Shown here: positions 1-43,267 of the stretch, one piece after another
Layout of the letters: the number at the start of each line of letters is the position of its first letter
Numbering within the stretch: the stretch's first letter is position 1
Virus record (IMG/VR): IMGVR_UViG_3300037348_000018
Location: 1 to 44,487 of that record
Strand: one strand, 5' to 3'
DNA: 44,487 bases
From: a virus
Position numbers and translations under genes: made by a program
The notes under the pieces: model-generated
What the model was told of the DNA's origin: nothing
The model's input: the letters and a program-made list of their open reading frames with translations, nothing else
Databases searched by the model: none

Positions 1-59
1 GCCTCCGGGTGAGCGAGACAGAGCGTAACGTTTGCACGATACATTCTGGTGTTAGCCAT
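1..59 (-). CDS. Tail-tube-like protein, 5' fragment cut by window edge
   Basis: The first 19 codons, starting at the ATG complementary to 57-59, match the N-terminus of the complete gene at 40466-40978. The gene is truncated only because the window begins here. Its ATG overlaps the stop codon of the upstream gene (TAATG). Confidence 0.85.
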   Translation of the reverse strand, partial: MANTRMYRANVTLCLAHPE

Positions 60-307
60 TAGTTCTCTTCCTCAATATCGATATTGGATTCGGTTTCTTG
101 CTCTTCATCTGTTTTTTTCATGAAAGAGAAAATGCCAGAGCGTTGCTCCTGCTTCTCTTCCACCGTGCCAGGCTTGTACATCACCGGGTTATACGGCTTT
201 GTACCTTCCTCGACGGGGACAAGGATGTCCTTAAACTTGGGGTGCCGAAGAGTCTTTGGAGAAACGTCGGCAATTTGTCCGGACACAGTGTTTAGGGCAA
301 GTACCAT
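59..307 (-). CDS. Small acidic neck/connector-region protein (unknown function)
   Basis: This 82-residue protein has an acidic tail ending in repeated Glu. It has no recognisable enzymatic motif. It lies between the tail-terminator-like gene (328-786) and the tail-tube-like gene, so a structural or assembly role at the head-tail junction is inferred from position only. Its ATG is preceded by GGTAAACT and exactly 6 nt, with no Shine-Dalgarno sequence, which suggests a leaderless transcript. Its stop overlaps the next start by one base. Confidence 0.7.
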   Translation of the reverse strand: MVLALNTVSGQIADVSPKTLRHPKFKDILVPVEEGTKPYNPVMYKPGTVEEKQEQRSGIFSFMKKTDEEQETESNIDIEEEN

Positions 308-313
308 GTATCT

Positions 314-321
314 AGTTTACC
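314..321 (-). promoter_or_regulatory. Candidate leaderless -10 promoter (GGTAAACT) for gene 59-307
   Basis: On the - strand GGTAAACT is followed by 6 nt and then the ATG at 307. A -10 box at that distance puts the transcription start at or next to the A of ATG. The same geometry is seen at eight other genes of this genome. No Shine-Dalgarno sequence is visible. Confidence 0.55.
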
Positions 322-327
322 ACCGTT

Positions 328-786
328 TTATGGCGTGATATTGGCACTAGGGTTTGTGGAATTGAACCTAAAAGAAAGCGTTCCGATTGCCAAATAAAGG
401 TGTGGCACAGCGCTGTCTTCTCCGATAGGAATAACAGATTCTCCCAGCTCTGGGGTCAATGCTGCTCCATTGGATATTTTCCACCCAATAAGACCATCCA
501 TAAAGTAACCAAGAAGCCTTCTGGCAATTTTTCCCTTTGGAGCTATGGCCACAATGTCAAATTTAGAAAAATATTCATCGTGTCTAACGCCAGCAAAAGA
601 AGTATTCTGCTGATCACGGCTCAGCCCGCCCCACCTCAAGACAACAAAAGGCTTCACCTTATTGCTCACCCTCAAAAGGTACTCGTCATCAAGAACATCA
701 TCATCTTTTATTTCATATTCGGGAAAAGATGATTCTACGTGGGCAAGAATTTCGTCTTGCAAAGAAATTAGGTCTATGCCGTTCAT
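328..786 (-). CDS. Tail terminator/tail completion-like protein
   Basis: This 152-residue protein follows the HK97-gp10-like gene and precedes the tail tube genes, the usual place of the tail terminator in siphoviruses. Size and the mixed alpha/beta look fit that family, but there is no decisive motif, so the call rests mainly on synteny. Its start (ATG at 784-786) overlaps the end of the upstream gene by four bases (ATGA), which implies translational coupling. The gene is visibly more AT-rich than the capsid genes, as is its upstream partner. Confidence 0.55.
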   Translation of the reverse strand: MNGIDLISLQDEILAHVESSFPEYEIKDDDVLDDEYLLRVSNKVKPFVVLRWGGLSRDQQNTSFAGVRHDEYFSKFDIVAIAPKGKIARRLLGYFMDGLIGWKISNGAALTPELGESVIPIGEDSAVPHLYLAIGTLSFRFNSTNPSANITP

Positions 787-1334
787 AATCTTTTCAATTC
801 CCTAACGAGGTCTTTATTAAAATCGCTTACAAGCTTTGGAATAACTTTTTCAATGTCAAATCGAGCGTCTCTAATAGCAAACATACCTTTTGTCATTTTA
901 AACTCGCCATTTGGCATCATTCTTACGACCGGACTCTTTCCTTTGACCCTCAAGGCTCCGCCTCGGTCATATGCAGCCTTGAATCTGTTTTTAAAACCAA
1001 CTTCTTGATACCTGTAGTATTCGGGAACCTTTGGCTTTATCCAACCAATCAAAATGTTACTTTTTGTTTTAAAAGCTGTAACTTTATAGCTTACAGCGTT
1101 ATACATCCTACCGGTTCTTCTTCTTCCCGACCCAGAGTTCAATCCAGCAGATTGCGCGGCTTTGCTAAACGGAGTTGCGCTATCAGCAATGTATTTTTTA
1201 ACTTGCTTTTCCCCAAAACTACCAATTTCTCTTGTTAGTCTTTGGCTCTCCCTTTGAATAGCGTTTGGAGCCTCGTTAATAATGTCCAAAACACGCTGTT
1301 GGCTTCTTTGTTCCATTTTTAAAATAAAATTCAT
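783..1334 (-). CDS. HK97 gp10-like head-tail connector/neck protein
   Basis: This 183-residue basic protein has a long helical N-terminus, followed by a GRRRTGRMYNAVSYKV segment and a later hydrophobic strand with IGW. That arrangement recalls the HK97-gp10 family of neck proteins that join the tail tube to the connector. Position between the head-tail stopper-like gene (1334-1774) and the tail terminator-like gene supports it. Start and stop overlap both neighbours (TAATG upstream, ATGA downstream). AT-rich relative to the capsid genes. Family assignment is by pattern, not alignment. Confidence 0.6.
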   Translation of the reverse strand: MNFILKMEQRSQQRVLDIINEAPNAIQRESQRLTREIGSFGEKQVKKYIADSATPFSKAAQSAGLNSGSGRRRTGRMYNAVSYKVTAFKTKSNILIGWIKPKVPEYYRYQEVGFKNRFKAAYDRGGALRVKGKSPVVRMMPNGEFKMTKGMFAIRDARFDIEKVIPKLVSDFNKDLVRELKRL

Positions 1335-1774
1335 TATGCCACCGACTTGACATCAGCATCGCACTCAATTGTGCGATTCCAACCGTAAGAAGAGTTGACG
1401 GCGGAGCGTACAAGAAGTATTAAATCGTTTAATACGACATCTTGACCACCATCGGTAATTCTTACTTGCATTCCTTTTCTGATAAGAGAAAGATCGGCAT
1501 CGTAGGGAACCTGGACCCTAAAGCCCTGTATGGCTCCCTGCATAACGTTTAAGTCGGGCAAGCTTTCCCCCTTGATTGGTTGAATTCTTGCCTTACCGGA
1601 CCACAGAACGCTTTCCGTGGAATCTCCGTAAGAATTTGTCGCCATATCCCAAGTTTGTTCTCGCATATTCGGATCAACAATCTGAATTTCGGCGTTGTAC
1701 CAACGTGCAACAATGTCGCGCATCTCAAGCGCGATCTTGGCAAAGTCTATAGGTGTGCTCTTGGAGATAGCCAC
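1334..1774 (-). CDS. Head-tail stopper-like protein (DUF6093-like)
   Basis: This 146-residue protein starts with GTG at 1774. It has a central beta-rich part (WSGKARIQPIKG, then FRVQVPYDA, IRKGMQVRITDGG) and an ending that mentions a conserved W and Cys. The pattern of a small beta-barrel with RIQP and a G-M-x-V turn fits head-tail stopper proteins of actinophages, which close the connector after packaging. It lies directly downstream of the adaptor-like gene and overlaps the next start by one base. Functional call is moderate; its place in the connector block is secure. Confidence 0.6.
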   Translation of the reverse strand: MAISKSTPIDFAKIALEMRDIVARWYNAEIQIVDPNMREQTWDMATNSYGDSTESVLWSGKARIQPIKGESLPDLNVMQGAIQGFRVQVPYDADLSLIRKGMQVRITDGGQDVVLNDLILLVRSAVNSSYGWNRTIECDADVKSVA

Positions 1775-1775
1775 G

Positions 1776-2186
1776 TTAGTTCCACCATGGGTACTCGTCT
1801 GCTTGACCGTCGTTGTCGTCGTCGATAAACATCTTGATCATGTTGAAGTATTCGTTAGACTCGTCCTGGAGCGCCTCTTCGCGGAGCTGTGCGGCAATCT
1901 TGCGCAAGGACTCGGCAATCTTATCGCCGTTGACCGTGAGGTCGTCCGAGGACCAGGACTTGAGAAGAAGCGCCTGCGAGCCAGCGATGGTCTCCATAGC
2001 GCGTGCAGTAGCAAGCTTGACGTTATCACCGTACATCGTGAGGAACGCGGCAATTTCATCATCGCCAAAGTACATGTAGTTACCAACACCGGCAACCACA
2101 TCGGTAGCCTCCGTGTCGCCAAGGAGAACTCGAACCTTACCAGTGTCGGTAGTGAAGTCAGCGGGAGATGCACCAGAATTTGCCAT
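1776..2186 (-). CDS. Head-tail adaptor/connector protein
   Basis: This 136-residue, mainly helical acidic protein begins after the capsid terminators and is the first gene of the connector block. The sequence runs from a short extended N-terminus (DFTTDTGKVRVLLGDT) to a helical bundle, a layout seen in gp6/gp15-type adaptors bound to the portal. GGTAAACT with 6 nt spacing precedes its ATG, and the upstream hairpins separate it from capsid transcription, so this gene probably starts its own transcript. Role is inferred from length, position and general pattern. Confidence 0.6.
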   Translation of the reverse strand: MANSGASPADFTTDTGKVRVLLGDTEATDVVAGVGNYMYFGDDEIAAFLTMYGDNVKLATARAMETIAGSQALLLKSWSSDDLTVNGDKIAESLRKIAAQLREEALQDESNEYFNMIKMFIDDDNDGQADEYPWWN

Positions 2187-2192
2187 ACTAAT

Positions 2193-2200
2193 AGTTTACC
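2193..2200 (-). promoter_or_regulatory. Candidate leaderless -10 promoter (GGTAAACT) for gene 1776-2186
   Basis: GGTAAACT on the - strand, then 6 nt, then the ATG at 2186. Because two terminator-like hairpins lie just upstream, a promoter here would be needed to express the connector genes. Confidence 0.6.
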
Positions 2201-2202
2201 GC

Positions 2203-2258
2203 AAAAAAGAACCACGCACCGGAGCCCGGGGAAGGGGGATGGGCTCAACGGTGCGTGG
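2203..2258 (-). terminator. Second hairpin with T-run downstream of capsid gene
   Basis: The arms CCACGCACCG (2212-2221) and CGGTGCGTGG (2249-2258) pair perfectly. An inner GAGCCC/GGGCTC pair extends the stem past a 2-nt bulge. Read leftward, the stem is followed by a T-rich stretch (complement of 2203-2210). It can act as a terminator or as a 5' regulatory hairpin before gene 1776-2186. It sits about 40 bases after a first strong terminator. Confidence 0.65.
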
Positions 2259-2299
2259 CAAGCCAGCAGGAGGGGAAGCTGGTATTTATATACTAACAA

Positions 2300-2339
2300 A
2301 GAAAAACCCCCGAGCAATTTCTCGCCCGGGGGTTTTTCT
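2300..2339 (-). terminator. Rho-independent terminator after major capsid gene
   Basis: The arms AGAAAAACCCCCG and CGGGGGTTTTTCT form a near-perfect GC-rich stem with T-tracts on both sides, so it can work in either direction. It lies 10 bases past the capsid stop codon and would end or reduce the head-gene transcript. Confidence 0.85.
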
Positions 2340-2348
2340 GTTGGCTAC

Positions 2349-3470
2349 TTAGGAGCCTGCACCTGTCGAGGCGCGGAGTCCATCCTTGGTGACCGAGAAT
2401 GCGTCCACAACGTGGCGCACGCGGGTCTGGATGTCGTCGTCGTCAAAGCTTCCGTCACGAACAGGAACTTCTCCACCAGCGAGGCTGAAGTGTCCGTTGT
2501 CCTTGATGGAGATGAGCGGAGTACGTGCACCCGAGAGGAAGACCTCCCAGAAGTACGGACGGACGTTCAGGTCGGGAATGACGAACCAGAAGTTGTCAGT
2601 CTGTCCGCCAGAAACGGTGTCCAGTGCGTTGAACTCGATTGGGTTGAACGGGCTGGTGATGATGCTGGGGTTGAAGATTGTCTCTTCAGAACCAGACGTC
2701 TTGCGAATCTGCTGCAAAGCAAACAGTTCGCGAACGGTCATCGCAAGCGACGTTCCGTAGACCAGCTTGTAGTTCGAAGCAACCACGCGGTTTCCACCAA
2801 CGGTGTCGGTGCGTGAGTCAGCCATAGCGGTTTGCAACGAGTCAAGCGACAGAGCGGGGTTTCCGCTGAGGCCCTTGCCGGAGAAGCCGGTTCCCAATGC
2901 GCCAGCGGTGGTCACGAAGAGTTTCGCAAGAGCGATGTCTTCCTGACGTGCGGCGTACTGTGCGAACTTCGAGGTCATCTGACCAATCATGTCGAAGTTA
3001 CCGACACGACGGAGGGATTCCCAAGACATGCGGGCACGGATGCCGTGCTTGCCTTCGAATTCCTTGTCCAGCTGAGTGGTGGTGAAAGGAACGGCGGGGT
3101 ACTCTTCGTACTCTCCGACGGACGGAAGTCCACCATTGATGAATTCTTCACCAGTTCCGCTAACGAGAGCGCTAGGGTCAACCTGGAAGTCACCGAAACG
3201 AATGGTACCGAAGTTGTCGGTCGTGTACTCGTCAGCGATTTGGTTCCAGACAACCTGCTCCGCAGCATACTGTGCGAGGAAGATTACGTTGATAGCAGGT
3301 TCCAGAACGGTTGGAATGTCCGAGGAGGAGATTCCTTCCTGAAGAGCTACCCTTGCACGAAGGTCACCGGAAAGCGCGTTGGTGAGGAGTTTTGCTGCCT
3401 CAATCTGACGCTTGGTGGAACGCTCTTCAATTCTGGCGATTTCCTGTTCAACCATTTGCATGTTTGCCAT
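2349..3470 (-). CDS. Major capsid protein
   Basis: This 373-residue protein forms the icosahedral shell. An N-terminal helical region (about 1-45) precedes a beta-rich body with the run EYTTDNFGTIRFGDFQ, a long central helix region (about 140-180) and a late FWFVIPDLNVRPYFWEV strand, consistent with an HK97-fold major capsid protein. Context is decisive: it directly follows the protease/scaffold and decoration genes and is closed off by a strong terminator, as expected for the most abundant head protein. The ATG at 3470 has AGGTGA upstream. The exact subfamily is not assigned. Confidence 0.85.
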   Translation of the reverse strand: MANMQMVEQEIARIEERSTKRQIEAAKLLTNALSGDLRARVALQEGISSSDIPTVLEPAINVIFLAQYAAEQVVWNQIADEYTTDNFGTIRFGDFQVDPSALVSGTGEEFINGGLPSVGEYEEYPAVPFTTTQLDKEFEGKHGIRARMSWESLRRVGNFDMIGQMTSKFAQYAARQEDIALAKLFVTTAGALGTGFSGKGLSGNPALSLDSLQTAMADSRTDTVGGNRVVASNYKLVYGTSLAMTVRELFALQQIRKTSGSEETIFNPSIITSPFNPIEFNALDTVSGGQTDNFWFVIPDLNVRPYFWEVFLSGARTPLISIKDNGHFSLAGGEVPVRDGSFDDDDIQTRVRHVVDAFSVTKDGLRASTGAGS

Positions 3471-3488
3471 TAGTTAAATCACCTATTC

Positions 3489-3839
3489 TTAGTTGTTGAT
3501 CCGGACGAAGACATCTCCAGCAACAGCGCCCTTGGCCTTGATAGCGTAGCCAACAAGTTCGTTAGAACCAGTGTCGCTGTCAGTGGTAAGAGCGGTGCCG
3601 TAAGTTGCGCCTGCGGCCAGGTAGATTGCAGCACCAACAGTGACGGCAACAGCGGTTGTACCGCGGAAGACACCAATGTGACGCAGGGTTGCGTAGTAGC
3701 TGGAGTCAGCTCCCAAAGCGGCGCTGGTTTCAGCGACACCAACAAGTCCACCGAGAACAACAAAGTCGCCAGATTCGACGGCAGCGTTCACGACGTAGTT
3801 AAGGGATTCTCCATCCACGTAAACTTCGTTAAGAGCCAT
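3489..3839 (-). CDS. DUF2190 capsid decoration/stabilisation protein
   Basis: This 116-residue protein matches the DUF2190 pattern: an N-terminal strand with a G-D-F-V-V-L-G-G-L-V-G-V-A-E run, then Y-A-T-L-R-H-I-G-V-F, a hydrophobic GAAIYL, and the closing segment AVAGDVFVRIN. DUF2190 proteins are small trimeric or cementing head proteins made next to the capsid. The start overlaps the protease stop by one base (TAATG), so the two are coupled. The capsid gene follows after 18 bases. Confidence 0.8.
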   Translation of the reverse strand: MALNEVYVDGESLNYVVNAAVESGDFVVLGGLVGVAETSAALGADSSYYATLRHIGVFRGTTAVAVTVGAAIYLAAGATYGTALTTDSDTGSNELVGYAIKAKGAVAGDVFVRINN

Positions 3840-5350: not shown

Positions 5351-5863
5351 CTACTTGGATAGATAAATAATAGCCAATTTTAGCTTATCTACATTATCAT
5401 CAAAATTTCCAATACCCAAATTACAAGAGCGGCAAAGCAGTCCCCTTACTTTTTGCGTAATGTGGTCGTGGTCAATAGACAGGTTTGTTGTCTCTTTCTT
5501 GCTGCATATCTTGCAAGAAAAGTTTTGCTCCACCAGTAACTTTTGGTAATCAACTAAAGATATTGAATACCTTCTCTCAACGGTGTAGTGGTAACGACAA
5601 AGTTTCTTTGCATAAAAAACATCAAGGCATCCCTCCATTGAGCATTGCTGATTGCTAAACTCTCCCGCGTTTCTTGCGGCTTGATAATGGGTAGAGCAAT
5701 AGCCCCTCTTCTTGAAAGCCAAATCGCAATCGGGGATAGAGCATCGTTTTTTTGCTTTACTTTTATCAACCAAAAACGCGCCAGATTTCCAAAGCTTATG
5801 ATAATGGGTAGAGCAATAGCCCCGACTTACTGATTTTCCGATGCAGTTTTCGTATAAGCACAT
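5351..5863 (-). CDS. Endonuclease VII-type HNH (homing) endonuclease with three zinc-finger repeats
   Basis: The 170-residue protein begins with three tandem C-x4-C-x(7-8)-C-x3-H modules (about 2-28, 41-66, 73-98). The first two share GYCSTHY, the third has KLCRYHY. The C-terminal half is an endonuclease VII-like HNH domain: CKICSKK, LSIDHDHITQKVRGLLC and CNLGIGNFDDN, giving the paired zinc cysteines and the catalytic D-H-D-H. The gene sits alone between portal and protease, is clearly AT-rich compared with them, and is not needed for head assembly, all typical of a free-standing homing endonuclease. On the - strand TATTAT lies 6 nt before its ATG, a possible own promoter. Confidence 0.85.
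   Translation of the reverse strand: MCLYENCIGKSVSRGYCSTHYHKLWKSGAFLVDKSKAKKRCSIPDCDLAFKKRGYCSTHYQAARNAGEFSNQQCSMEGCLDVFYAKKLCRYHYTVERRYSISLVDYQKLLVEQNFSCKICSKKETTNLSIDHDHITQKVRGLLCRSCNLGIGNFDDNVDKLKLAIIYLSK
5682..5823 (-). repeat. 25-bp direct repeat pair inside the HNH gene
   Basis: Bases 5682-5706 and 5799-5823 are identical over 25 bp, 117 bp apart. They encode the GYCSTHY cores of zinc-finger modules 1 and 2. The near-perfect identity at DNA level suggests a recent duplication or gene conversion of the finger module. Confidence 0.85.
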
Positions 5864-7373: not shown

Positions 7374-7381
7374 AGCTTACC
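7374..7381 (-). promoter_or_regulatory. Candidate leaderless -10 promoter (GGTAAGCT) for portal gene
   Basis: GGTAAGCT, 6 nt, ATG at 7367. It overlaps the end of the large terminase gene, so the box also encodes its last Trp and stop. Confidence 0.45.
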
Positions 7382-8912
7382 AGTAACTTGAGGCGTAGAA
7401 CGAATGCTCTGCCATTACATCTTCTGGGTGAAAAACCTCTCCCAGCTGGGGACCCGATACATCGTGCGAGATGGTAGACAAGATGGCAGCGTCCAAAGAG
7501 TCGGGAGAAGAGATACCAGACTTGCGCATCTGGTCCTTGCTCGTCATCGTGATAGAACCCCTGGTGCTGAAGTGATAAGTCTGGCTTATCATTTCCTCAC
7601 GAAGCTGATTGTCTTCGTAGTCTATGTCCAGCTGCTTGTTTGCAAGGAGTTCTCGAAACGTGTCGTAGTGCCACGCCCTGGCGTTTGTCCACCTTGCCGA
7701 ATCTGGCGAACCGTGAGATCCATTAATAGCGCCAACACTATAAACGGCGTCATTAAAATCGTCCAGCCTAAGAAGAGCGTCAACAACACCACCACCCACA
7801 CCGTTAACGTCAACATTGATAACATCCGCCATAACCCTTTGAGCATGTCCGTGCACTCTCCTTGCCGTTTCTATGAGGTCAAGCTTAGACCACTTGTCTA
7901 CAAGACGTACTTTTCCGCCTCGGTTAATGTACAAAACATTCTCATCTGAACCAAAACGAGCAACGTCCAAACCAAGCGTTGGTCGCACGGCATCATCATC
8001 TTCAAAGACCGTGTCGAATCCGTTGTCAATTACAAGCTGCGAGAAGAAAGTATTGTCGGCTTCGTCCGGGAACTCTCCCAGCACCTTGGCCTTGTAGCGT
8101 GCGGAGTCCTCGCCCCAGGCACGCTTCTTGTGCTCGACCCACTCAACGCTGGTAAGGCCATTTAAAAAATTTTTCTGATCTTCCTCTTCGGGGTAAACAA
8201 GCTCCTGAGTAAATGTTGGTAAATCAAAAGCGCTAATCGTATGGAGGGACCAGTCCTGCGATAGTTGAGGGTCAGTAAAAATTCTATGAAACTCAGTTCC
8301 TCTTCTATCTGGGTTGCCAATCGCGAGAATGCGGGAACCCTGACCAGTGGCCACTGCCTCAGCGGCCGTGAACATGTCCGTAGGAAGTCCACCAGCTTCG
8401 TCAAGGAAAACAAAAGTATTTCGCTTTCGAGTACCCTGGAAAGACGAAACAATGTCCTGGTCGCTGGGTCGCTTTCCGAATACCAAGAATTCTGCACCAT
8501 TAGTACCATCCAATTTCCACGCTAGTGTTTCCGTAATCCTACCCGGAAGTGGCCTATTGTTTACTTCTGCCATACCTTTGTTTACTTTAAGGTACGCGAA
8601 GATAACCTTCTCAATCTGCGACAACGTCGGCGCAGAGACAATACACAACGTTTCACTCGGCACGCCAGTGGCCACAATCCAGGTTATCAAGTCAGCCACC
8701 ACCGCGGACTTACCACAACCGTTAGCGCTCTTCACCGCGGTGCGAGATGAATCCATAAACCCAGCGACAATCTCCGACTGCTTGGAATACCAGCGCTTGC
8801 CGAGGACATCCACTAGCCAAGCCTCCGGGTCTGACTGGTACAGCCTCAGCTTGCTCTTGGCACGCATCTCCCCGATAGCAGAGTCGAGAACATCATTCAA
8901 ATATGTTGGCAT
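7377..8912 (-). CDS. terL: Terminase large subunit
   Basis: This 511-residue DNA-packaging motor has an N-terminal ATPase and a C-terminal nuclease. SANGCGKS (62-69) is the Walker A loop and FVFLDEAGG (167-175) holds the Walker B Asp-Glu. The RNase H-like nuclease starts at TLGLDVARFGSD (Asp316), continues with a VINVDVNGVGGG strand and ends with the acidic DSLDAAI motif. It pumps DNA into proheads through the portal. The start overlaps the small terminase gene by 20 bases, so the two subunits are made together. Length is normal for the family. Confidence 0.93.
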   Translation of the reverse strand: MPTYLNDVLDSAIGEMRAKSKLRLYQSDPEAWLVDVLGKRWYSKQSEIVAGFMDSSRTAVKSANGCGKSAVVADLITWIVATGVPSETLCIVSAPTLSQIEKVIFAYLKVNKGMAEVNNRPLPGRITETLAWKLDGTNGAEFLVFGKRPSDQDIVSSFQGTRKRNTFVFLDEAGGLPTDMFTAAEAVATGQGSRILAIGNPDRRGTEFHRIFTDPQLSQDWSLHTISAFDLPTFTQELVYPEEEDQKNFLNGLTSVEWVEHKKRAWGEDSARYKAKVLGEFPDEADNTFFSQLVIDNGFDTVFEDDDAVRPTLGLDVARFGSDENVLYINRGGKVRLVDKWSKLDLIETARRVHGHAQRVMADVINVDVNGVGGGVVDALLRLDDFNDAVYSVGAINGSHGSPDSARWTNARAWHYDTFRELLANKQLDIDYEDNQLREEMISQTYHFSTRGSITMTSKDQMRKSGISSPDSLDAAILSTISHDVSGPQLGEVFHPEDVMAEHSFYASSYW

Positions 8913-9413: not shown

Positions 9414-9710
9414 GTACTTGTAATGTATCGCCCTAGCGGATACAAACCAAGCACTCGTGACAAAAGCGTACCTAAACCTCTACACGTTTGGCCCATGTGT
9501 AAACCTAAGTTGGTTTTCAACAGCCTCGCATCGGCACGAACACGCGGATGTGGCTTGCAAATAGTATGCGCGGGCATCCTCGAGGGTCGAATCTGTGCGT
9601 ACACACATCCATGTATATGTGTACAAAACGTTCCATGTATATACGGAAATCAGCATCCGTGTATATACGGAAATTAGGTGTCAAAACCCTATCCTTGGTT
9701 ACAGGATTTG
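9414..9710. promoter_or_regulatory. Gene-free regulatory region upstream of the late operon
   Basis: About 300 bases without a convincing gene. It holds the three 24-bp repeats (9608-9679), a possible hairpin at 9693-9720 and the -10 box of the small terminase just to its left. Rightward ORFs here have no RBS and no protein-like composition. A control region for late transcription, a packaging site beside terS, or both are possible. Confidence 0.5.
9608..9679. repeat. Three direct repeats with exact 24-bp period (operator/iteron-like)
   Basis: Units start at 9608, 9632 and 9656. Each begins TCC(A/G)TGTATAT. Units 2 and 3 share TGTATATACGGAAAT and contain a dyad of the form TCCGT...ACGGA. The regular spacing on one DNA face and the inner palindrome suggest co-operative protein binding sites. 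It could be an operator array for the late operon, a replication iteron or a terminase recognition site. Confidence 0.7.
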
Positions 9711-9720
9711 TTACCCAAGG
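9693..9720 (-). terminator. Weak hairpin at the end of gene 9711-10007
   Basis: CCTTGG (9693-9698) and CCAAGG (9715-9720) are inverted and enclose the stop codon region; leftward the stem is followed by a short GGGTTTT run. The stem is only 6 bp with mismatches inside, so function is doubtful. Confidence 0.25.
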
Positions 9721-10007
9721 CTATCTTCTTCGTGCTGCATGTCGGGCCACTGCACGGCGTTGCGTTTCTTCGCATCAATGGCATCAAAGTAAGTGCCCTC
9801 AAGGTTCGTCTCTAAATGCTCAATCACGCTCAAAGCGAAAGCCAACTCCTTCGACACCCTGCTTTCAGCGTCAACCACAAAATCGACATGCTCGTAATAG
9901 AATTCCCACACCGTCTGGAACGCCTCGCGCTTCACCCGCAGCTCCTGGGCCAGCAGGTCATAGCAGTGCGCCATCCCCGCAATAAAATGTTCGTTGTCGT
10001 CGATCAT
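9711..10007 (-). CDS. Unknown 98-residue acidic protein upstream of late operon
   Basis: Not recognised. The ATG at 10007 has an excellent AGGAGG about 7 nt upstream, which decides the start over a longer frame beginning at 10049. The protein is acidic and mostly helical, with a compact central part rich in aromatic residues (WEFYYEHVDFVV). It is the only leftward gene between the early promoter region and the 24-bp repeats, so it is well placed to be a regulator of the late operon, but no helix-turn-helix is obvious. Confidence 0.7.
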   Translation of the reverse strand: MIDDNEHFIAGMAHCYDLLAQELRVKREAFQTVWEFYYEHVDFVVDAESRVSKELAFALSVIEHLETNLEGTYFDAIDAKKRNAVQWPDMQHEEDSLG

Positions 10008-10169
10008 GACTTCATCTCCTCCTGAGTATTCGCCATCAGAATAACACATAATCGGGTGTTGGAAATTTAAATTTGAAATTGAAAAAAATTAAACGCGCGG
10101 GTGGTCCGTACCCCAAAGCCCGCCCCGCGCGCTCCCCGGAATTGTTTCACCGCCGCGCCGCGTGACAAC

Positions 10170-10198
10170 TTGACAACCGCCGCCGCCCGTGGTATTGC
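10170..10198 (+). promoter_or_regulatory. Upstream copy of early promoter core (TTGACA)
   Basis: TTGACA at 10170-10175 is followed by a CCGCCGCCCGTG spacer and TATTGC 17 bp later. The block is a near copy of the promoter at 10311, 141 bp downstream. Its -10 match is poor, so it may be a decayed or weak promoter. Confidence 0.4.
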
Positions 10199-10220
10199 GC
10201 GCGCCCGCGTTCCACTTATA

Positions 10221-10250
10221 GCCCCGGAAGCCGCCGCCCCGGAAGCCGCC
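10221..10250. repeat. Tandem 15-bp repeat (two units)
   Basis: GCCCCGGAAGCCGCC occurs at 10221-10235 and again at 10236-10250, between the two early promoter cores. Confidence 0.8.
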
Positions 10251-10310
10251 CGCCATTACCACGCCCCGGGAGCTGCGCGCGACACGCCCCGAAAGAATTA
10301 GCCTAGGGTC

Positions 10311-10339
10311 TTGACAATTGCCGCCGCCCGTGAGATTAT
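10311..10339 (+). promoter_or_regulatory. Early promoter of GC-rich operon
   Basis: TTGACA at 10311-10316, 17-bp spacer, then GATTAT (4 of 6 to TATAAT). It lies 53 bases before the first gene of the GC-rich operon and matches a sigma-70-type promoter that a host polymerase could use immediately after infection. Confidence 0.65.
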
Positions 10340-10391
10340 CGGGTGCTGCCGCAATTGCCGCTGCACCCACCACGAAAGAAAGAAGCACACC

Positions 10392-10541
10392 ATGACAATC
10401 ACGACAACAAGCCACGCGGGCGACACGTTCACGTATCGCTTCGACCCCGGAAGCCGCGCCGCGGTGATGGTCTTCTATTGGGAGATGATGAGGGACGGCA
10501 AACTAGCCAGTTTCTCCGTCGACGGTGTGGCCGTAGCATGA
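10392..10541 (+). CDS. Unknown 49-residue early protein
   Basis: First gene of the GC-rich operon. The ATG at 10392 follows a purine-rich GAAAGAAAGAAG; the longer frame from 10311 would start inside the promoter. The small protein has a DTFTYRFD strand, a central helix (YWEMMRDGK) and a final strand (ASFSVDGVAV), suggesting a compact alpha/beta fold. Its stop overlaps the next start (ATGA). Function unknown; small proteins made first from a strong early promoter often act on host machinery, but nothing here proves it. Confidence 0.65.
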   Translation: MTITTTSHAGDTFTYRFDPGSRAAVMVFYWEMMRDGKLASFSVDGVAVA

Positions 10542-10681
10542 GCGCCCGAGGAACAATTGCGCCCCGGTTCATAGATCCGGAGACTTTGGCCATCGCGCGC
10601 CTAGTTGCCAAGGCTACGGGCGCAACGCTAGAGGAAGCGCTAGCTGACCAAGCGGAACTATTCCAAGGCGGGGAAGCATGA
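10538..10681 (+). CDS. Unknown 47-residue early protein
   Basis: Second gene, overlapping both neighbours by ATGA. The 47 residues form one helical stretch (ETLAIARLVAKATGATLEEALADQAELF) that looks like a two-helix or short DNA/protein-binding bundle. No family recognised. Coding status is supported by the unbroken chain of overlaps and by composition shared with the other genes of the operon. Confidence 0.55.
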   Translation: MSARGTIAPRFIDPETLAIARLVAKATGATLEEALADQAELFQGGEA

Positions 10682-10893
10682 ACCGCGCAAGATGGGCAGA
10701 CGTCGAACCCGTCGCCCCTAACTATTGGGGCCCCGGTGTCGGGTACCGCATATTCTGCGCGGGCGGGTGTGAACGCTCCAAAGAATTGGGGCATATCTCC
10801 GTGTGGGGACACCGCTACATATTCCACACCAAGACCGAGGCCCTAGCCGCGTGGCGTGAAGCTCACCCCCGCGAGAATGGAGACAACAAGTGA
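10678..10893 (+). CDS. Unknown 71-residue early protein
   Basis: Third gene. It contains CAGGCERS near the middle and a strongly aromatic core (VWGHRYIFHTKTEALAAW). The two cysteines spaced C-x3-C and nearby His could bind a metal, but the motif is not a known ribbon. ATGA overlap upstream; its stop overlaps the GTG of the next gene. Function unknown. Confidence 0.6.
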   Translation: MNRARWADVEPVAPNYWGPGVGYRIFCAGGCERSKELGHISVWGHRYIFHTKTEALAAWREAHPRENGDNK

Positions 10894-11330
10894 ACACGAC
10901 CACGACCACGACCCCGCCACACTTTGACAGTGTGGCCGCCATCATAGAAGCAGATAAGGCCGCGGGCTTCTTCTTCTTCTCTCCGGGCGGAATGCGCTTC
11001 TTTCAGTGTCGCGTTAGTCGCGAACTTATCGGCGGGCGCTTCTTCGTCACAAGCGAACAAGCGCCCAATGCGGCAGTATGGGGCGGCGCGCGCCGCTACA
11101 CCGTGAGGGAAGCCACCGCCGCGGGAATAGACACTGTGGGAGAATTTCAACAACACGCCACCCGCGCCCAAGCTATCGCTGCGGCTAAGGCGACGGCTAA
11201 GGCGGGGGCACTCTCGCTAATAGAGTGCCCCGCCCACGCGGGCGCGTTTGACTGCACACCATTCTGCCGCTTGTGTGAAGGCGCTCAAGAATACAACCCG
11301 GAACCGCTAACAGAAAGTGACACACCATGA
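10890..11330 (+). CDS. Conserved-type 146-residue protein with RFF-x-x-RV...GGRFFVTSEQ core
   Basis: The largest gene of the GC-rich operon starts with GTG at 10890. Its core (MRFFQCRVSRELIGGRFFVTSEQ, then RRYTVRE and GEFQQHATRAQAIAAAK) resembles small proteins I know from high-GC actinobacterial phages and conjugative elements, but whose function is not known to me. The C-terminal part holds four Cys (IECPAHAGAFDC and FCRLC), a possible zinc site. Overlaps both neighbours by 4 bases. Confidence 0.7.
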   Translation: MNTTTTTTPPHFDSVAAIIEADKAAGFFFFSPGGMRFFQCRVSRELIGGRFFVTSEQAPNAAVWGGARRYTVREATAAGIDTVGEFQQHATRAQAIAAAKATAKAGALSLIECPAHAGAFDCTPFCRLCEGAQEYNPEPLTESDTP

Positions 11331-11557
11331 ACCGCCAAGACTACCAAGCCATAGCCGCCGCCCTTGCGGGCCATGAGCGCCGCCTAACCTCTAGCACTCT
11401 CGACGCCCGGGGAAGCTTCAAAGACCTAGTGAACGACCTAATGCTAGTGATGGAAGAAGATAACTCGCGCTTTGACCGTTCGCGCTTTATCGCCGCGGTG
11501 TGGGATAACGCGAACGACTACCACGACCTAGAAGAACTCTCCGGGCGGTGGGTGTGA
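11327..11557 (+). CDS. Unknown 76-residue protein (small actinophage early family)
   Basis: The N-terminus MNRQDYQAIAAALAGHERR and the later RFDRSRFIAAV segment follow a pattern common in small early proteins of actinophages and actinobacterial plasmids: a Tyr-led helix, an acidic middle, and an FDRxRF-led helix. Function is unknown. ATGA overlap with the upstream gene and a 1-base overlap with the ATG at 11557. Confidence 0.65.
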   Translation: MNRQDYQAIAAALAGHERRLTSSTLDARGSFKDLVNDLMLVMEEDNSRFDRSRFIAAVWDNANDYHDLEELSGRWV

Positions 11558-11775
11558 TGAGGGCGGCCATCGAAACTGACCGCTTACTAGGTGGCGGGGC
11601 GCTTGTCTTCATCGACGGGCGCCACACCGCCGCGCGTCAATGGGAAGGTGTCCGCGCTCACTTGGAAAAAGAAGCGGGCGGCAAAGACTGTGGCCTAATT
11701 GGCGTGATGGTGTTCACGGACGACCCCAACTACCGGCCACGCTTCTCTCCCGGCCAGAAAGTGGCGACACGGTGA
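11557..11775 (+). CDS. Unknown 72-residue early protein
   Basis: Starts at ATG 11557, inside the stop of the previous gene (TGATG); an in-frame GTG at 11548 is possible but less economical. The alternation of short strands and one helix (ALVFIDGR, WEGVRAHLEKEAG, CGLIGVMVFTDD) suggests a small alpha/beta fold. No family recognised. Stop overlaps the GTG of the membrane protein gene. Confidence 0.6.
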   Translation: MRAAIETDRLLGGGALVFIDGRHTAARQWEGVRAHLEKEAGGKDCGLIGVMVFTDDPNYRPRFSPGQKVATR

Positions 11776-11939
11776 GCGCCTACGGTGTCACGGTGTCCGC
11801 GCTTCTTGTGGCTTGCTTCTTGGCCGCCGCCATCGAACCGCCCATCGCTTACATGGTACCGCTTGTGGCGTACGCGTGGGTTGTCTTGGCGTGGTGCTAC
11901 AAGCGGGAGACCGCGCCCCGATACCGCCGCAAGCGCTAA
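11772..11939 (+). CDS. Small membrane protein, 55 residues
   Basis: Last gene of the GC-rich operon, starting with GTG at 11772 (GTGA overlap). Two hydrophobic segments, about 5-20 and 25-42, joined by IEPP, and a short basic tail (RYRRKR), predict a two-span inner-membrane protein with cytoplasmic ends. Function unknown; roles in superinfection exclusion or in host membrane change are possible for an early membrane protein, by analogy only. Confidence 0.6.
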   Translation: MSAYGVTVSALLVACFLAAAIEPPIAYMVPLVAYAWVVLAWCYKRETAPRYRRKR

Positions 11940-11950
11940 CCCCTACCCGC

Positions 11951-11990
11951 GCGCCCCGCTACCCCTCACCGGGTGGCGGGGCGCTTCTTT
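11951..11990 (+). terminator. Rho-independent terminator ending GC-rich operon
   Basis: The arms GCGCCCCGCTACCC (11951-11964) and GGGTGGCGGGGCGC (11971-11984) pair over 14 bp with one T-G pair, a 6-base loop, then TTCTTT. It closes the early operon 12 bases after its last stop codon. Confidence 0.88.
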
Positions 11991-12336
11991 GCGCTTGTTC
12001 CATTGATCTAAATTTACCGCCGCGACTCAGTATCGGAGAAGACCGCCACCGCTAACCCAAGCCCCTCAAAATTGCCACCCGGTGCTATTGCTCACCCGGT
12101 GGCCATTGGCGCGCCTACGGGGCGGCCACCGCTTGGCGCGGGGGAATTAGCCGCCCCGGTGGGTGTCTGCACAAGTAGCCGCGGGCGCGGGTTACCCCTC
12201 ACAAGCCATAGGCGCCCCGCTCAGACACTTTTAGGCACCGCGGGTAGTAAGTACCGCCCCGGATATTCCAAGCGCTTAGAATGGCGCACAGAGCCGCAGC
12301 TAGCGAATTCCGACTTTTTGGGCAGATTCGCAATTG

Positions 12337-12366
12337 CAATAGGCGAAGCTCGCAGAAAAACACGGG
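12337..12366 (+). repeat. Dispersed 30-bp repeat, copy 1
   Basis: CAATAGGCGAAGC, 4 variable bases, then AGAAAAACACGGG. The same 13+4+13 arrangement recurs at 16659-16688 (26 of 30 identical). This copy continues into GCATTTTTT, making the 20-bp A-tract/T-tract element at 12356-12375. Confidence 0.85.
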
Positions 12367-12434
12367 GCATTTTTTCACTCCAGGAAATCTCAAGCTATAG
12401 CGAATTTCGATCGAAAAAACACGGGGCATTTTTT
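12356..12434. repeat. Two copies of AAAAACACGGGGCATTTTTT
   Basis: Identical 20-bp elements at 12356-12375 and 12415-12434, start-to-start distance 59 bp. Each has an A-tract and a T-tract flanking a GC core and could bend DNA or form a weak hairpin. Confidence 0.85.
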
Positions 12435-12472
12435 AGCCGCGCCCCTTTAGAAACACATACACACTATGTCAC

Positions 12473-12500
12473 TATAATACTATTATTAGAATATAGTATT
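12473..12500. promoter_or_regulatory. AT-rich dyad with TATAAT
   Basis: AATACTAT (12476-12483) and ATAGTATT (12493-12500) form an inverted repeat with a 9-base spacer. A perfect TATAAT sits at 12473-12478 but has no good -35. Candidate operator, promoter or origin melting site. Confidence 0.5.
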
Positions 12501-12593
12501 CTATGTTAAGAACACGGTGTATCTCATTCCCACATCCCACTGGATTACTCAAAACTTTTCCCCAACTATTTTCGCGACACGCCGAATCACCAC

Positions 12594-12622
12594 TTGACAC
12601 CATCAAAACCCTATGGCATAGT
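12594..12622 (+). promoter_or_regulatory. Promoter of the second early operon
   Basis: TTGACA at 12594-12599, 17-bp spacer, CATAGT at 12617-12622 (4 of 6 to TATAAT). Expected start is near 12629, about 35 bases before the first gene of a long co-directional series reaching 25 kb. Confidence 0.65.
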
Positions 12623-16851: not shown

Positions 16852-18127
16852 AACTCTCAAGGCAGTCGAGGTGTCAAAGGCTATCGATGCGAAGGTAATC
16901 TTATTGATTGCCCCGCTCAACACCAGGCTTGGATGGCAGGTCACCTATCAGAGGCAAGGGGTTGACCTGCCATTCAAATGGATCAACTCAACCAAGGCTG
17001 GGCAACAGGCGAAGGATGACTGGGCATGGCAACAGCCCGGCATCTACTTCGTCGGAGTGGAGCTCTTCGTGCGCTTGGGTTGGGATGGCAGAGCTCGCAC
17101 GGATATGTGGTCCAAGGTGCCAGACCTGGTTCTGTTTGATGAGGTACATCGTGGGCAGAATCGCAAGAGCAAGACACACAAGACACTCAAGCAGGTCAAG
17201 GGTGGCTTCAAGCTGGCGATGTCTGGCACGCCTACGGGCAACAGCTTCAGCGGAGCGTGGGCAGTAACCAAGTGGCTATGGCCAAGCGAGGTGGACAATT
17301 CTTATTGGGCATGGGTAGACAAGTGGTGTGCCACTGAGTACGATCACTTCGCTCCTAACGGCAAGAAGATTACAGGTGAGCGCAGACCTGGCGCGTTCTT
17401 CAACTCGCTCCCCTGCTATGTCCGCATCGAGTCAGAGGTGGAGTCCGAGCTCCAAGAGGAGCAGGTCTACATCGAGCTGACACGTGAGCAGCGCAAGGCG
17501 TACAACGAGCTAGAAGAGAAGATGATTACTTGGCTAGGGGAAAGACCGCTGGTGGTCGAGTTCCCGATTAGCTTGCGTGCCAGGCTACGACAAGCCACGC
17601 TCGGGTTGTTCTCGATCGACGATGATGACAACGTGGTGTTTGATAATGATTGCAAGTCTCAGAAGATTGATGTGATGTTCGACGTTCTAGAAGATGACTT
17701 CGAGAATGAGACCGCACTTATCCTTACCGACTCGCGCAAGTTTGCTGACGTGGTAGTGAGCAGGCTTACTCGAGACGGGAAGACTGCTATGCCGTGGCAC
17801 GGAAACATCTCGGATGCCAAGCGACAAGAGACCAAGGAAGCCTTTGTCAGTGGTTCGTGCCAGTATGTAGTAGCGGTTATCGCAGCTATTGCCGAGGGGG
17901 TAGATGGATTGCAACACGCCACACGTAATGTCCTGTGGCTCAACCGCAGTGACAATAGAATTCTGAACGAGCAGGTGGCCAAGCGGGTGCACCGCAGGGG
18001 TCAGGAGAGAACGGTTCGATCGGTAGAGCTCGTGGCCATTGACACGTATGACTCCGGGGTACTAAGCTCCCAGATAAAGAAGGCAATAGATATGAACAAG
18101 ACCCTCAAGGAGAAGCATGGCAATTGA
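16742..18127 (+). CDS. SNF2/DEAD-type helicase
   Basis: This 461-residue superfamily 2 ATPase has motif I MGSGKT (33-38), motif II DEVH (133-136), motif III SGTPTGN (161-167) and motif VI RVHRRGQ (about 415-421), the order and spacing of compact phage SNF2-like helicases. It probably remodels replication or recombination intermediates. ATG 16742 is chosen because the conserved fold begins at once (LLPTPDQQSAIQ); an upstream in-frame ATG at 16652 would add 30 residues encoded by the dispersed repeat. The C-terminus overlaps the WhiB-domain gene by 11 bases. Confidence 0.88.
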   Translation: MTLEKLLPTPDQQSAIQRIVTEPTRAALNASTMGSGKTLKAVEVSKAIDAKVILLIAPLNTRLGWQVTYQRQGVDLPFKWINSTKAGQQAKDDWAWQQPGIYFVGVELFVRLGWDGRARTDMWSKVPDLVLFDEVHRGQNRKSKTHKTLKQVKGGFKLAMSGTPTGNSFSGAWAVTKWLWPSEVDNSYWAWVDKWCATEYDHFAPNGKKITGERRPGAFFNSLPCYVRIESEVESELQEEQVYIELTREQRKAYNELEEKMITWLGERPLVVEFPISLRARLRQATLGLFSIDDDDNVVFDNDCKSQKIDVMFDVLEDDFENETALILTDSRKFADVVVSRLTRDGKTAMPWHGNISDAKRQETKEAFVSGSCQYVVAVIAAIAEGVDGLQHATRNVLWLNRSDNRILNEQVAKRVHRRGQERTVRSVELVAIDTYDSGVLSSQIKKAIDMNKTLKEKHGN

Positions 18128-18779
18128 AGTGGGGGACACATGCAAGAAGGGTCACCTTATTGTTGGGGACAATATTCAGGTTTACACGAACCAAGGTCGG
18201 GAGCGAGTGCGTTGCTCAACATGCAACCAGCCGCCAAGGTCTAACCCTAAGAAGAAGCCGGGTGACCTGTGTAAGAACGGTCACGTTATCATAGGTGATA
18301 ATCTTCGGGAGAAGAAGATGCCTACTGGTATTGCCTACATCTGCGTCATCTGCTCAAGGGAAGCGGTGCGCAGGCAGAACTCTAAGTACATGACCGAAGA
18401 GGAAATGGAACGTAGGGATAAGGGTCAGAATAAGTCTGCGCTTCAGTCAGCTCGAAGGGCAGCGGAGAAAGCCGATCAAATGATTGGCGCTGGAAAAGAA
18501 GATAACGCTCTCAACTATCTCAAGCTGAACAAAAGATCCGAGAGGATGAGTGACGTTCTTCAGAAAGCAATGACACAGAACAAAGCCAAGTGCGCAGACA
18601 AGCCAGAAGTTTGGGTTGACTACGAGGAAGGCGAAGAGCCAACAAAGAATCAGGCTTATGTTATGTGTCACGACTGTCCCGTGTTGGTGGAGTGTGCTAG
18701 ATTCGCTAGCGCATACAGACCGGCCGTCGGTGTATGGGGCGGGGAAGTTTACAAAGACGGCAAGTTACTACACAAATAG
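18117..18779 (+). CDS. WhiB-domain protein with two N-terminal C-x3-H/C-x2-C zinc-ribbon modules
   Basis: The 220-residue protein ends in a WhiB-like iron-sulphur domain: C159, C184, C187 and C193 in the C...C-x2-C-x5-C order and the GVWGG turn (205-209). WhiB proteins are actinobacterial regulators that bind a 4Fe-4S cluster and the sigma factor region 4. The first 80 residues contain two similar modules, C9-x3-H13...C33-x2-C36 and C52-x3-H56...C76-x2-C79, each opening G-D-x-C-K-x-G-H and containing G-D-N. This module is seen in phage HNH and other DNA-binding proteins, but its tandem fusion to WhiB is unusual to me. A charged helical linker joins the halves. It may steer host RNA polymerase to phage promoters; this is inference. 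Starts inside the helicase end. Confidence 0.85.
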   Translation: MAIEVGDTCKKGHLIVGDNIQVYTNQGRERVRCSTCNQPPRSNPKKKPGDLCKNGHVIIGDNLREKKMPTGIAYICVICSREAVRRQNSKYMTEEEMERRDKGQNKSALQSARRAAEKADQMIGAGKEDNALNYLKLNKRSERMSDVLQKAMTQNKAKCADKPEVWVDYEEGEEPTKNQAYVMCHDCPVLVECARFASAYRPAVGVWGGEVYKDGKLLHK

Positions 18780-40466: not shown

Positions 40467-40978
40467 TATGAAGCCACCTCATAGTTCCAGTTTACGAAGT
40501 CGTTGTTCAGGAACGACTGGCTGATGCGCTGGTTCTCACCGTTGCCGACCACGTCGATCCCGAAGTCAGTTTTGACTCCAACCATTTTGATGCGGTCGCC
40601 AGAAGCAAAGTTCGTGTCGCTGTCCTGACCAATCCGCTGAATTGCAATGTACTCAATGTCGGGGAATGCAATGAGGTCAAGTGCCTCGTTGAATACTCCG
40701 GTGGCAGCAGTGTCCGCGTCGCGGAATGCTTCAAATACAACCTCTGGGTTGTAGAAGGTCGGGGTGGACAGGTTGCCTTCATCGCAGAAAGTAAGCGAGT
40801 CGTCAGTGTCTGAATCCCCGAGGGTGAACGTCGTTCCGTCCTCGTTCAAAGCGCAGGTGATGTTTTTCACAAGAGCTGAGTTCAGCTCGGCTGCGGTGGG
40901 GGCTGCGCGGTTTGCAAAAGCCTCCGGGTGAGCGAGACAGAGCGTAACGTTTGCACGATACATTCTGGTGTTAGCCAT
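40466..40978 (-). CDS. Tail-tube-like protein (paralogue without Ig domain)
   Basis: The 170-residue protein shares with the next gene the N-terminal A-P-T-A-A-E-L-N motif, a following acidic beta segment and a VFNEALDLIAFPDIEYIAIQRIG stretch that aligns with VYDLLDVPRTKGFLVMRIDG there. It is shorter and lacks the Ig domain. It may be the second tube subunit or a tube initiator. Complete copy of the gene cut at window base 1; the ATG overlaps the stop of the upstream connector-like gene. Confidence 0.75.
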   Translation of the reverse strand: MANTRMYRANVTLCLAHPEAFANRAAPTAAELNSALVKNITCALNEDGTTFTLGDSDTDDSLTFCDEGNLSTPTFYNPEVVFEAFRDADTAATGVFNEALDLIAFPDIEYIAIQRIGQDSDTNFASGDRIKMVGVKTDFGIDVVGNGENQRISQSFLNNDFVNWNYEVAS

Positions 40979-41226
40979 TAGTTCTCTTCCTCAATATCGA
41001 TATTGGATTCGGTTTCTTGCTCTTCATCTGTTTTTTTCATGAAAGAGAAAATGCCAGAGCGTTGCTCCTGCTTCTCTTCCACCGTGCCAGGCTTGTACAT
41101 CACCGGGTTATACGGCTTTGTACCTTCCTCGACGGGGACAAGGATGTCCTTAAACTTGGGGTGCCGAAGAGTCTTTGGAGAAACGTCGGCAATTTGTCCG
41201 GACACAGTGTTTAGGGCAAGTACCAT
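40978..41226 (-). CDS. Small acidic neck/connector-region protein (duplicate copy)
   Basis: Same gene as 59-307 in the right-hand copy of the terminal duplication, with identical translation. Here it is joined to the complete downstream tail-tube-like gene, which shows the true gene order of the circle. Its leaderless -10 box is repeated at 41233-41240. Confidence 0.75.
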   Translation of the reverse strand: MVLALNTVSGQIADVSPKTLRHPKFKDILVPVEEGTKPYNPVMYKPGTVEEKQEQRSGIFSFMKKTDEEQETESNIDIEEEN

Positions 41227-41232
41227 GTATCT

Positions 41233-41240
41233 AGTTTACC
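41233..41240 (-). promoter_or_regulatory. Leaderless -10 (GGTAAACT), duplicate copy
   Basis: Right-hand copy of the box at 314-321, with the same 6-nt spacing to the ATG. Confidence 0.55.
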
Positions 41241-41246
41241 ACCGTT

Positions 41247-41705
41247 TTATGGCGTGATATTGGCACTAGGGTTTGTGGAATTGAACCTAAAAGAAAGCGT
41301 TCCGATTGCCAAATAAAGGTGTGGCACAGCGCTGTCTTCTCCGATAGGAATAACAGATTCTCCCAGCTCTGGGGTCAATGCTGCTCCATTGGATATTTTC
41401 CACCCAATAAGACCATCCATAAAGTAACCAAGAAGCCTTCTGGCAATTTTTCCCTTTGGAGCTATGGCCACAATGTCAAATTTAGAAAAATATTCATCGT
41501 GTCTAACGCCAGCAAAAGAAGTATTCTGCTGATCACGGCTCAGCCCGCCCCACCTCAAGACAACAAAAGGCTTCACCTTATTGCTCACCCTCAAAAGGTA
41601 CTCGTCATCAAGAACATCATCATCTTTTATTTCATATTCGGGAAAAGATGATTCTACGTGGGCAAGAATTTCGTCTTGCAAAGAAATTAGGTCTATGCCG
41701 TTCAT
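41247..41705 (-). CDS. Tail terminator-like protein (duplicate copy)
   Basis: Identical to 328-786; see that entry. Confidence 0.6.
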   Translation of the reverse strand: MNGIDLISLQDEILAHVESSFPEYEIKDDDVLDDEYLLRVSNKVKPFVVLRWGGLSRDQQNTSFAGVRHDEYFSKFDIVAIAPKGKIARRLLGYFMDGLIGWKISNGAALTPELGESVIPIGEDSAVPHLYLAIGTLSFRFNSTNPSANITP

Positions 41706-42253
41706 AATCTTTTCAATTCCCTAACGAGGTCTTTATTAAAATCGCTTACAAGCTTTGGAATAACTTTTTCAATGTCAAATCGAGCGTCTCTAATAGCAAA
41801 CATACCTTTTGTCATTTTAAACTCGCCATTTGGCATCATTCTTACGACCGGACTCTTTCCTTTGACCCTCAAGGCTCCGCCTCGGTCATATGCAGCCTTG
41901 AATCTGTTTTTAAAACCAACTTCTTGATACCTGTAGTATTCGGGAACCTTTGGCTTTATCCAACCAATCAAAATGTTACTTTTTGTTTTAAAAGCTGTAA
42001 CTTTATAGCTTACAGCGTTATACATCCTACCGGTTCTTCTTCTTCCCGACCCAGAGTTCAATCCAGCAGATTGCGCGGCTTTGCTAAACGGAGTTGCGCT
42101 ATCAGCAATGTATTTTTTAACTTGCTTTTCCCCAAAACTACCAATTTCTCTTGTTAGTCTTTGGCTCTCCCTTTGAATAGCGTTTGGAGCCTCGTTAATA
42201 ATGTCCAAAACACGCTGTTGGCTTCTTTGTTCCATTTTTAAAATAAAATTCAT
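41702..42253 (-). CDS. HK97 gp10-like neck protein (duplicate copy)
   Basis: Identical to 783-1334; see that entry. Confidence 0.6.
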   Translation of the reverse strand: MNFILKMEQRSQQRVLDIINEAPNAIQRESQRLTREIGSFGEKQVKKYIADSATPFSKAAQSAGLNSGSGRRRTGRMYNAVSYKVTAFKTKSNILIGWIKPKVPEYYRYQEVGFKNRFKAAYDRGGALRVKGKSPVVRMMPNGEFKMTKGMFAIRDARFDIEKVIPKLVSDFNKDLVRELKRL

Positions 42254-42693
42254 TATGCCACCGACTTGACATCAGCATCGCACTCAATTGTGCGATTCCA
42301 ACCGTAAGAAGAGTTGACGGCGGAGCGTACAAGAAGTATTAAATCGTTTAATACGACATCTTGACCACCATCGGTAATTCTTACTTGCATTCCTTTTCTG
42401 ATAAGAGAAAGATCGGCATCGTAGGGAACCTGGACCCTAAAGCCCTGTATGGCTCCCTGCATAACGTTTAAGTCGGGCAAGCTTTCCCCCTTGATTGGTT
42501 GAATTCTTGCCTTACCGGACCACAGAACGCTTTCCGTGGAATCTCCGTAAGAATTTGTCGCCATATCCCAAGTTTGTTCTCGCATATTCGGATCAACAAT
42601 CTGAATTTCGGCGTTGTACCAACGTGCAACAATGTCGCGCATCTCAAGCGCGATCTTGGCAAAGTCTATAGGTGTGCTCTTGGAGATAGCCAC
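42253..42693 (-). CDS. Head-tail stopper-like protein (duplicate copy)
   Basis: Identical to 1334-1774; see that entry. Confidence 0.6.
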   Translation of the reverse strand: MAISKSTPIDFAKIALEMRDIVARWYNAEIQIVDPNMREQTWDMATNSYGDSTESVLWSGKARIQPIKGESLPDLNVMQGAIQGFRVQVPYDADLSLIRKGMQVRITDGGQDVVLNDLILLVRSAVNSSYGWNRTIECDADVKSVA

Positions 42694-42694
42694 G

Positions 42695-43105: not shown

Positions 43106-43111
43106 ACTAAT

Positions 43112-43119
43112 AGTTTACC
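43112..43119 (-). promoter_or_regulatory. Leaderless -10 (GGTAAACT), duplicate copy
   Basis: Right-hand copy of the box at 2193-2200. Confidence 0.6.
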
Positions 43120-43121
43120 GC

Positions 43122-43177: not shown

Positions 43178-43218
43178 CAAGCCAGCAGGAGGGGAAGCTG
43201 GTATTTATATACTAACAA

Positions 43219-43258: not shown

Positions 43259-43267
43259 GTTGGCTAC

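Follow-up and report, generated by a model that had tools for sequence, protein, structure and literature searches.

In the Bacillus phage SPO1, a host-takeover module of 26 genes occupies a 12.4-kb terminal region, and several of its products are proven to attenuate growth; the genes are mostly small and early and are served by strong promoters (PMC6873191). Morons, described from lambdoid and Mu-like phages, likewise have their own promoter and terminator and a different base composition, and are usually single coding regions (PMC4378225). Here we describe a cassette of seven small genes in a single virus record, the whole of which (44,487 bases) was analyzed and is referred to as the window. 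Judged from alignments with related phages, the cassette occupies a fixed slot between two conserved non-coding elements.

The first 3,568 bases of the window (positions 1-3568) are identical to its last 3,568 (40920-44487), across capsid-region genes, and the unit genome is therefore ~40.9 kb; this terminal repeat probably arose when the assembly ran past its starting point on a circular or permuted genome. The large terminase gene (7377-8912, minus strand) is closest to those of the Clavibacter phages CN1A and CMP1 (47% and 44% identical, respectively), followed by those of Microbacterium and Arthrobacter phages, which makes an actinobacterial host likely. The rightward half of the genome encodes a helicase, an Erf-type annealing protein, an exonuclease, a single-strand binding protein, a primase and a polymerase exonuclease subunit, and neither an integrase nor a repressor was found among the proteins scanned, a subset of the open reading frames; the phage is probably lytic. 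A free-standing Endonuclease VII-type HNH gene (5351-5863, minus strand; 40% GC) is 85% identical to a copy at the same site in the related locus L015, where the flanking portal gene is 64% identical, and is not present at that site in most other relatives, a pattern suggestive of a homing-type endonuclease that moved recently. In the product of 18117-18779 (plus strand), an HNH endonuclease-like part (residues 45-124) is apparently joined to a WhiB-like part (residues 147-214). The CN1A terminase gene (NC_023549, 47000-49528) carries an intein in its annotation, whereas the terminase of the window is uninterrupted.

The seven overlapping reading frames were found where the original prediction had placed them. 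Designated c1 to c7, they span 10392-11939 on the plus strand, comprise 49, 47, 71, 146, 76, 72 and 55 codons, respectively, and each of the six junctions is an overlap of 1-4 nt (ATGA, ATGA, GTGA, ATGA, TGATG and GTGA). The TTGACA promoter predicted at 10311 was confirmed as a sigma-70-like site (TTGACA-N17-GATTAT; 10311-10339, plus strand) with an extended -10 in the form of a TG before the hexamer, and six promoter-like sites were counted in the region compared with 1.7 ± 1.5 in shuffles of it. The promoter sequence occurs a second time farther upstream (TTGACA-N17-TATTGC; 10170-10198, same strand), at a place where the relatives also have a TTGACA; the two copies belong to a 28-nt direct repeat (10169-10196 and 10310-10337; 86% identical) for which a search of viral contigs with two positions left free returned no match. 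At the other end of the operon, the predicted terminator (11951-11984, plus strand) held up as a 14-pair stem with a 6-nt loop followed by TTCTTT, a combination of 14-pair stem and T-rich tail that was absent from all 200 dinucleotide shuffles (longest stem, 12 pairs). In being a compact set of small genes behind a host-type promoter, this operon (hereafter op1) has a feature of host-takeover or immediate-early modules. In at least one relative, L022, promoters of host type characterize the early region: nine near-perfect sites (TTGACA-N18-TATAAT) upstream of the terminase gene precede many small early genes, as against 0.06 expected from shuffles.

The cassette also differs in composition from the rest of the genome. 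A sharp rise in GC content from about 10090 had been predicted and was observed, but the GC-rich stretch does not stop at 11990 as had been proposed; it continues for ~300 bp of non-coding DNA beyond the terminator and ends near 12300. The GC content of 10090-12300 is 62.4%, compared with 52.2% for the genome and 56.6% for the richest other, non-overlapping 2.2-kb window. Codon usage also sets the cassette apart: its distance from the remaining rightward genes is 0.49, whereas blocks of similar size among those genes gave 0.20-0.42. The leucine codon CTG is not used once among 31 positions in the cassette but at 89 of 308 elsewhere, and over the whole GC-rich stretch, coding and non-coding alike, CAG/CTG occurs at 0.36 of expectation (0.94-0.97 elsewhere), an avoidance that is not common to the corresponding cassette of L015. 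The content of the cassette resembles what a different gene pool would supply, although composition alone can have other causes too. The GC-rich non-coding tail (11985-12300) has no unusual RNA structure, and the possibility of a structured RNA was rejected (fold z-score of 0.60; no Rfam match).

To place the cassette in context, we compared it with relatives obtained from terminase matches in viral contigs (loci L004-L034), to which a search with c2 added L038; since these were found by pattern scans, the census of relatives is incomplete. Terminase identity to the window is 88% for L004, 85% for L038, 79% for L009 and 72% for L015. In blastn comparisons, DNA identity to L004 is 82% up to 9400 and 88% over 43 bp at 10069-10111, to the right of which there are only patches of similarity, beyond 12984; similarity to L009 and L013 resumes at 12463-12525. 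The interval 9600-12600 matched no DNA of annotated phages or plasmids. The left conserved non-coding element (LE; beginning GAAATTGAAAAAAATTAAACGCGCGGGTGGTCCGTAC...; 10061-10123, plus strand), within which the GC content jumps, was defined by an nhmmer profile seeded with the window, L004 and L038, so that only its unseeded matches are independent: L008 (4e-10), L009 (2e-7), L013 (6e-7) and, weakly, L007 and L011. In the relatives it always lies between the putative small terminase gene and the first rightward genes, and as a sequence pattern it was found among viral contigs only in that of L004 and in L008. Side-by-side alignment of the upstream sequences revealed a conserved word, GAATTGTTT (10139-10147, plus strand), present also in L015, and the relatives have LE, this word and TTGACA in the same order as the window.

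On the right, an AT-rich conserved element (RE; 12459-12525, plus strand) was matched by nhmmer in L009, L013, L004, L022, L038 and L015; the model was partly seeded by its own matches, the last four of these loci being non-seed. The conserved right side begins with the promoter of the second rightward operon (P2; TTGACA-N17-CATAGT with an extended -10; 12594-12622, plus strand), which has near-identical counterparts in L009, L015, L038 and L004. Between LE and RE there is no detectable DNA similarity among the relatives, and the genes differ. Thus the slot, with divergent packaging genes to its left and the replication operon to its right, has a frame native to the phage group and a variable interior, as evidenced by the retention of LE, RE, the upstream sequence and P2 in relatives. 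Just inside RE, two identical 20-nt repeats, AAAAACACGGGGCATTTTTT, lie 59 nt apart (12356-12434, plus strand) and are operator- or iteron-like; repeats of different sequence occur in the same interval in L004, L009, L011, L013, L015, L027 and L038. The stretch 12340-12620, in which the repeats are followed by the AT-rich block, adjoins the cumulative GC-skew minimum (12.9 kb) and is a candidate replication origin.

Small overlapping genes recur in the slots of relatives despite their different content. L004 has c1, a zinc-ribbon-like protein and a 35-residue membrane protein; L009 has c1, a 28-residue cysteine/histidine knuckle protein and a 30-residue membrane protein; L007 and L008 have other small genes with a membrane protein of 34-35 residues late in the set; L038 has c2 and one further gene, then a terminator; and L028 has unrelated small genes, the last of which encodes a 53-residue membrane protein. 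A membrane protein of 30-55 residues is accordingly last or late in the operon in L004, L007, L008, L009, L015, L028 and the window, with spans assigned by a simple hydropathy scan for the window, L015, L028 and L009 and by eye for L004, L007 and L008. L015 shares three genes with the window: a gene in the place of c1 is followed by counterparts of c2, c4 and c7, arranged as in the window, and by a terminator, and this cassette, too, is GC-rich (62.3%, compared with 51.2% for the rest of the locus). Similarity of c6 and c1 to the remaining L015 cassette genes was too weak for a claim of homology. L015 further differs in ~3 kb of extra DNA between the small terminase gene and the cassette, including, just before the cassette, a gene for a DNA methyltransferase, a usual anti-restriction gene. 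L004, L038 and L009 are without most of the cassette genes and have other small overlapping genes instead; L004 and L038 lack the c4-type (DUF7447) gene and c7 although they are nearer to the window by terminase than L015 is. Because distant L015 shares c4 and c7 while L004 and L038 lack them, exchange or repeated loss must account for the gene pattern.

None of the products matched a protein of established activity, and structure prediction yielded no usable fold; PADLOC and NCBIfam scans returned nothing relevant and no defense-related model. The product of c1 (49 aa; 10392-10541, plus strand, as are all seven) belongs to a small protein family of the phage group, its relatives in the first operons of L004 and L009 being 44% (E 5e-9) and 41% identical, respectively. 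For c2 (47 aa; 10538-10681), AlphaFold2 predicts two helices (residues 14-27 and 31-46), and relatives were found in L015 (55% identity), L007 (67% over 18 residues) and L038 (56%). The sequence pattern of c2 had raised the possibility of a VapB-like ribbon-helix-helix antitoxin, for which Pfam, a PDB profile search and Foldseek gave no support. For c3 (71 aa; 10678-10893), the match is to L038, where a gene in the second early operon is 36% identical (E 1.5e-5). The largest product, c4 (146 aa; 10890-11330), combines a DUF7447 domain (PF24239; residues 18-100, E 2.4e-15, 56.9 bits against a curated cut-off of 24.1) with a C-terminal cysteine/histidine knuckle, CPxHxGxFDCTPFCxxCEGxQEY, and also matches phrog_4655 (8e-14). 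DUF7447 occurs as well in unrelated phage contigs and in one Hymenobacter contig, and we found no mention of it in the literature searched; tblastn of c4 against phages and plasmids gave nothing at E 0.01. A fold assignment for c4 was dropped, the AlphaFold2 model having a pLDDT of 66 and no significant Foldseek match. The knuckle is the free-standing 28-aa gene of the L009 first operon and is fused to other partners in relatives. The product of c5 (76 aa; 11327-11557) belongs to a widespread small phage protein family (MTRKDYxxIA...DNPRFDxxRFxxAC) found in 40 viral contigs, with invariant columns M1, D5, Y6, A10, N46, F49 and A57; it has both the MxRxDYxxIA start and the DNxxFDxxxF end of the family (alignment A9, 20 sequences). 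No relative was found for c6 (72 aa; 11557-11775). The last gene, c7 (55 aa, GTG start; 11772-11939), had been predicted to encode a two-span membrane protein, and the hydropathy scan agreed, with two hydrophobic spans forming a predicted membrane hairpin with a conserved EPP turn and a basic tail; the gene that closes the L015 cassette is 36% identical to it (E 4e-5). Relatives of c1, c3 and c5 are also encoded by L038, in its second early operon, or by op1 of L004 and L009; these genes are therefore not specific to the immediate-early slot, and the cassette draws on the early-gene pool of the group. An anti-CRISPR operon with an aca regulator was considered and set aside, as searches of Pfam, PHROGs, NCBIfam and PADLOC matched no regulator family and hence no recognizable helix-turn-helix gene of aca type beside the small genes, c2 being a possible regulator.

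Three other explanations of the operon were weighed. It could serve phage replication or its control, in which case the c2 product, a helical hairpin, might bind DNA at the repeats as a small regulator. Consistent with this, op1 lies between the packaging region and the origin-like stretch, repeats and an AT-rich block follow it in most relatives, the cumulative GC skew reaches its minimum at 12.9 kb, c2 is again found near the beginning of op1 in L007, L038 and L015, and the very weak fold matches of c2 include MazE-mt10 and AvtR, which we take to be ribbon-helix-helix proteins. However, a Pfam search with c2 was empty even at E = 10, and its fold matches have E > 1; in addition, the terminator and 370 bp separate op1 from the repeats, and the AT block is retained where the gene set is not. 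We therefore regard a replication-control role as unlikely, its small probability coming from the repeats, AT-rich block and GC-skew minimum just downstream.

The promoter, the terminator and a composition unlike that of its neighbors would also be expected of a moron, a foreign unit with transcription signals of its own that has integrated between two genes of a phage. This is improbable for op1: insertion into an empty site was rejected, the slot being filled in the relatives (with other small genes in L004, L008, L009, L038 and L028), the sequence upstream of op1 belongs to the phage group itself, and seven genes contrast with the usually single coding region of a moron (PMC4378225). Passive drift, in which small dispensable early genes gather at an insertion-tolerant divergent junction and have no common role, agrees with the variation in contents between phages and with the fact that most of the genes are orphans or members of widespread small phage families. 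Yet the perfect overlaps, the single terminator, the late membrane gene in most relatives and the preserved order of c2, c4 and c7 in L015 point to selection as a unit, and we consider drift very unlikely.

We lean instead, with some reservation, toward the view that op1 is an accessory operon, transcribed first and exchangeable within its fixed slot, that acts on the host or its defenses. The module had originally been described as acquired; its composition and the presence of different genes in the same slot of relatives with terminases up to 88% identical favor that description, but the frame is native. It appears that genes were exchanged within a locus these phages already possessed, and not that a complete foreign cassette was introduced, because the left flank and the upstream sequence of the operon are conserved in relatives. 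Immediate-early expression would fit both the position of op1, as the first rightward operon and divergent from the packaging genes, and its host-type promoter; host RNA polymerase would transcribe it upon DNA entry without phage factors, translational coupling would yield several small proteins in fixed proportion, and the terminator would insulate op1 from the replication operon. The product of c7 might act as a small inner-membrane protein, for example in superinfection exclusion or envelope alteration, while c4 and the other soluble products could bind host proteins or nucleic acids and so block defense or redirect metabolism. A role in host takeover or counter-defense is plausible by analogy, and rapid swapping fits an arms-race role. 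It is conceivable, if doubtful, that LE (10061-10123) and RE (12459-12525) are exchange borders and that whole early operons are swapped by recombination in them. The slot would then represent a naturally occurring repertoire of interchangeable anti-host operons, in most of which a small membrane protein is encoded toward the end, and the two elements could serve as bookmarks for collecting such operons from an uncultured phage group with no need to recognize the genes; this would provide ready sets of small proteins, including the recurrent membrane protein and the mobile cysteine knuckle, for defense and growth-inhibition screens. Taken alone, the cassette offers the more modest lesson of a familiar kind of early accessory operon.

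Among known systems, the Clavibacter phages CN1A and CMP1 resemble this genome in having packaging genes and then many small genes near a boundary. Their long terminal repeats (952 and 791 bp, respectively) place their ends within some kilobases of the terminase gene, and the 3,568-bp redundancy of the window is located elsewhere than the cassette; their junction regions contained no relatives of the cassette genes and no RE, with only a non-significant match to LE (E 0.057). Compared with DUF7447 as otherwise found, c4 adds the cysteine/histidine knuckle, which elsewhere is a gene of its own. Unlike morons, the cassette has several genes and conserved non-coding flanks, and none of the relatives examined has an empty slot. 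It differs from the SPO1 module in comprising seven genes; what it shares with that module are clusters of predominantly small genes, arranged as short operons behind promoters of their own and believed in SPO1 to be directed at the host, and it is this analogy that supports our guess as to the role of the cassette.
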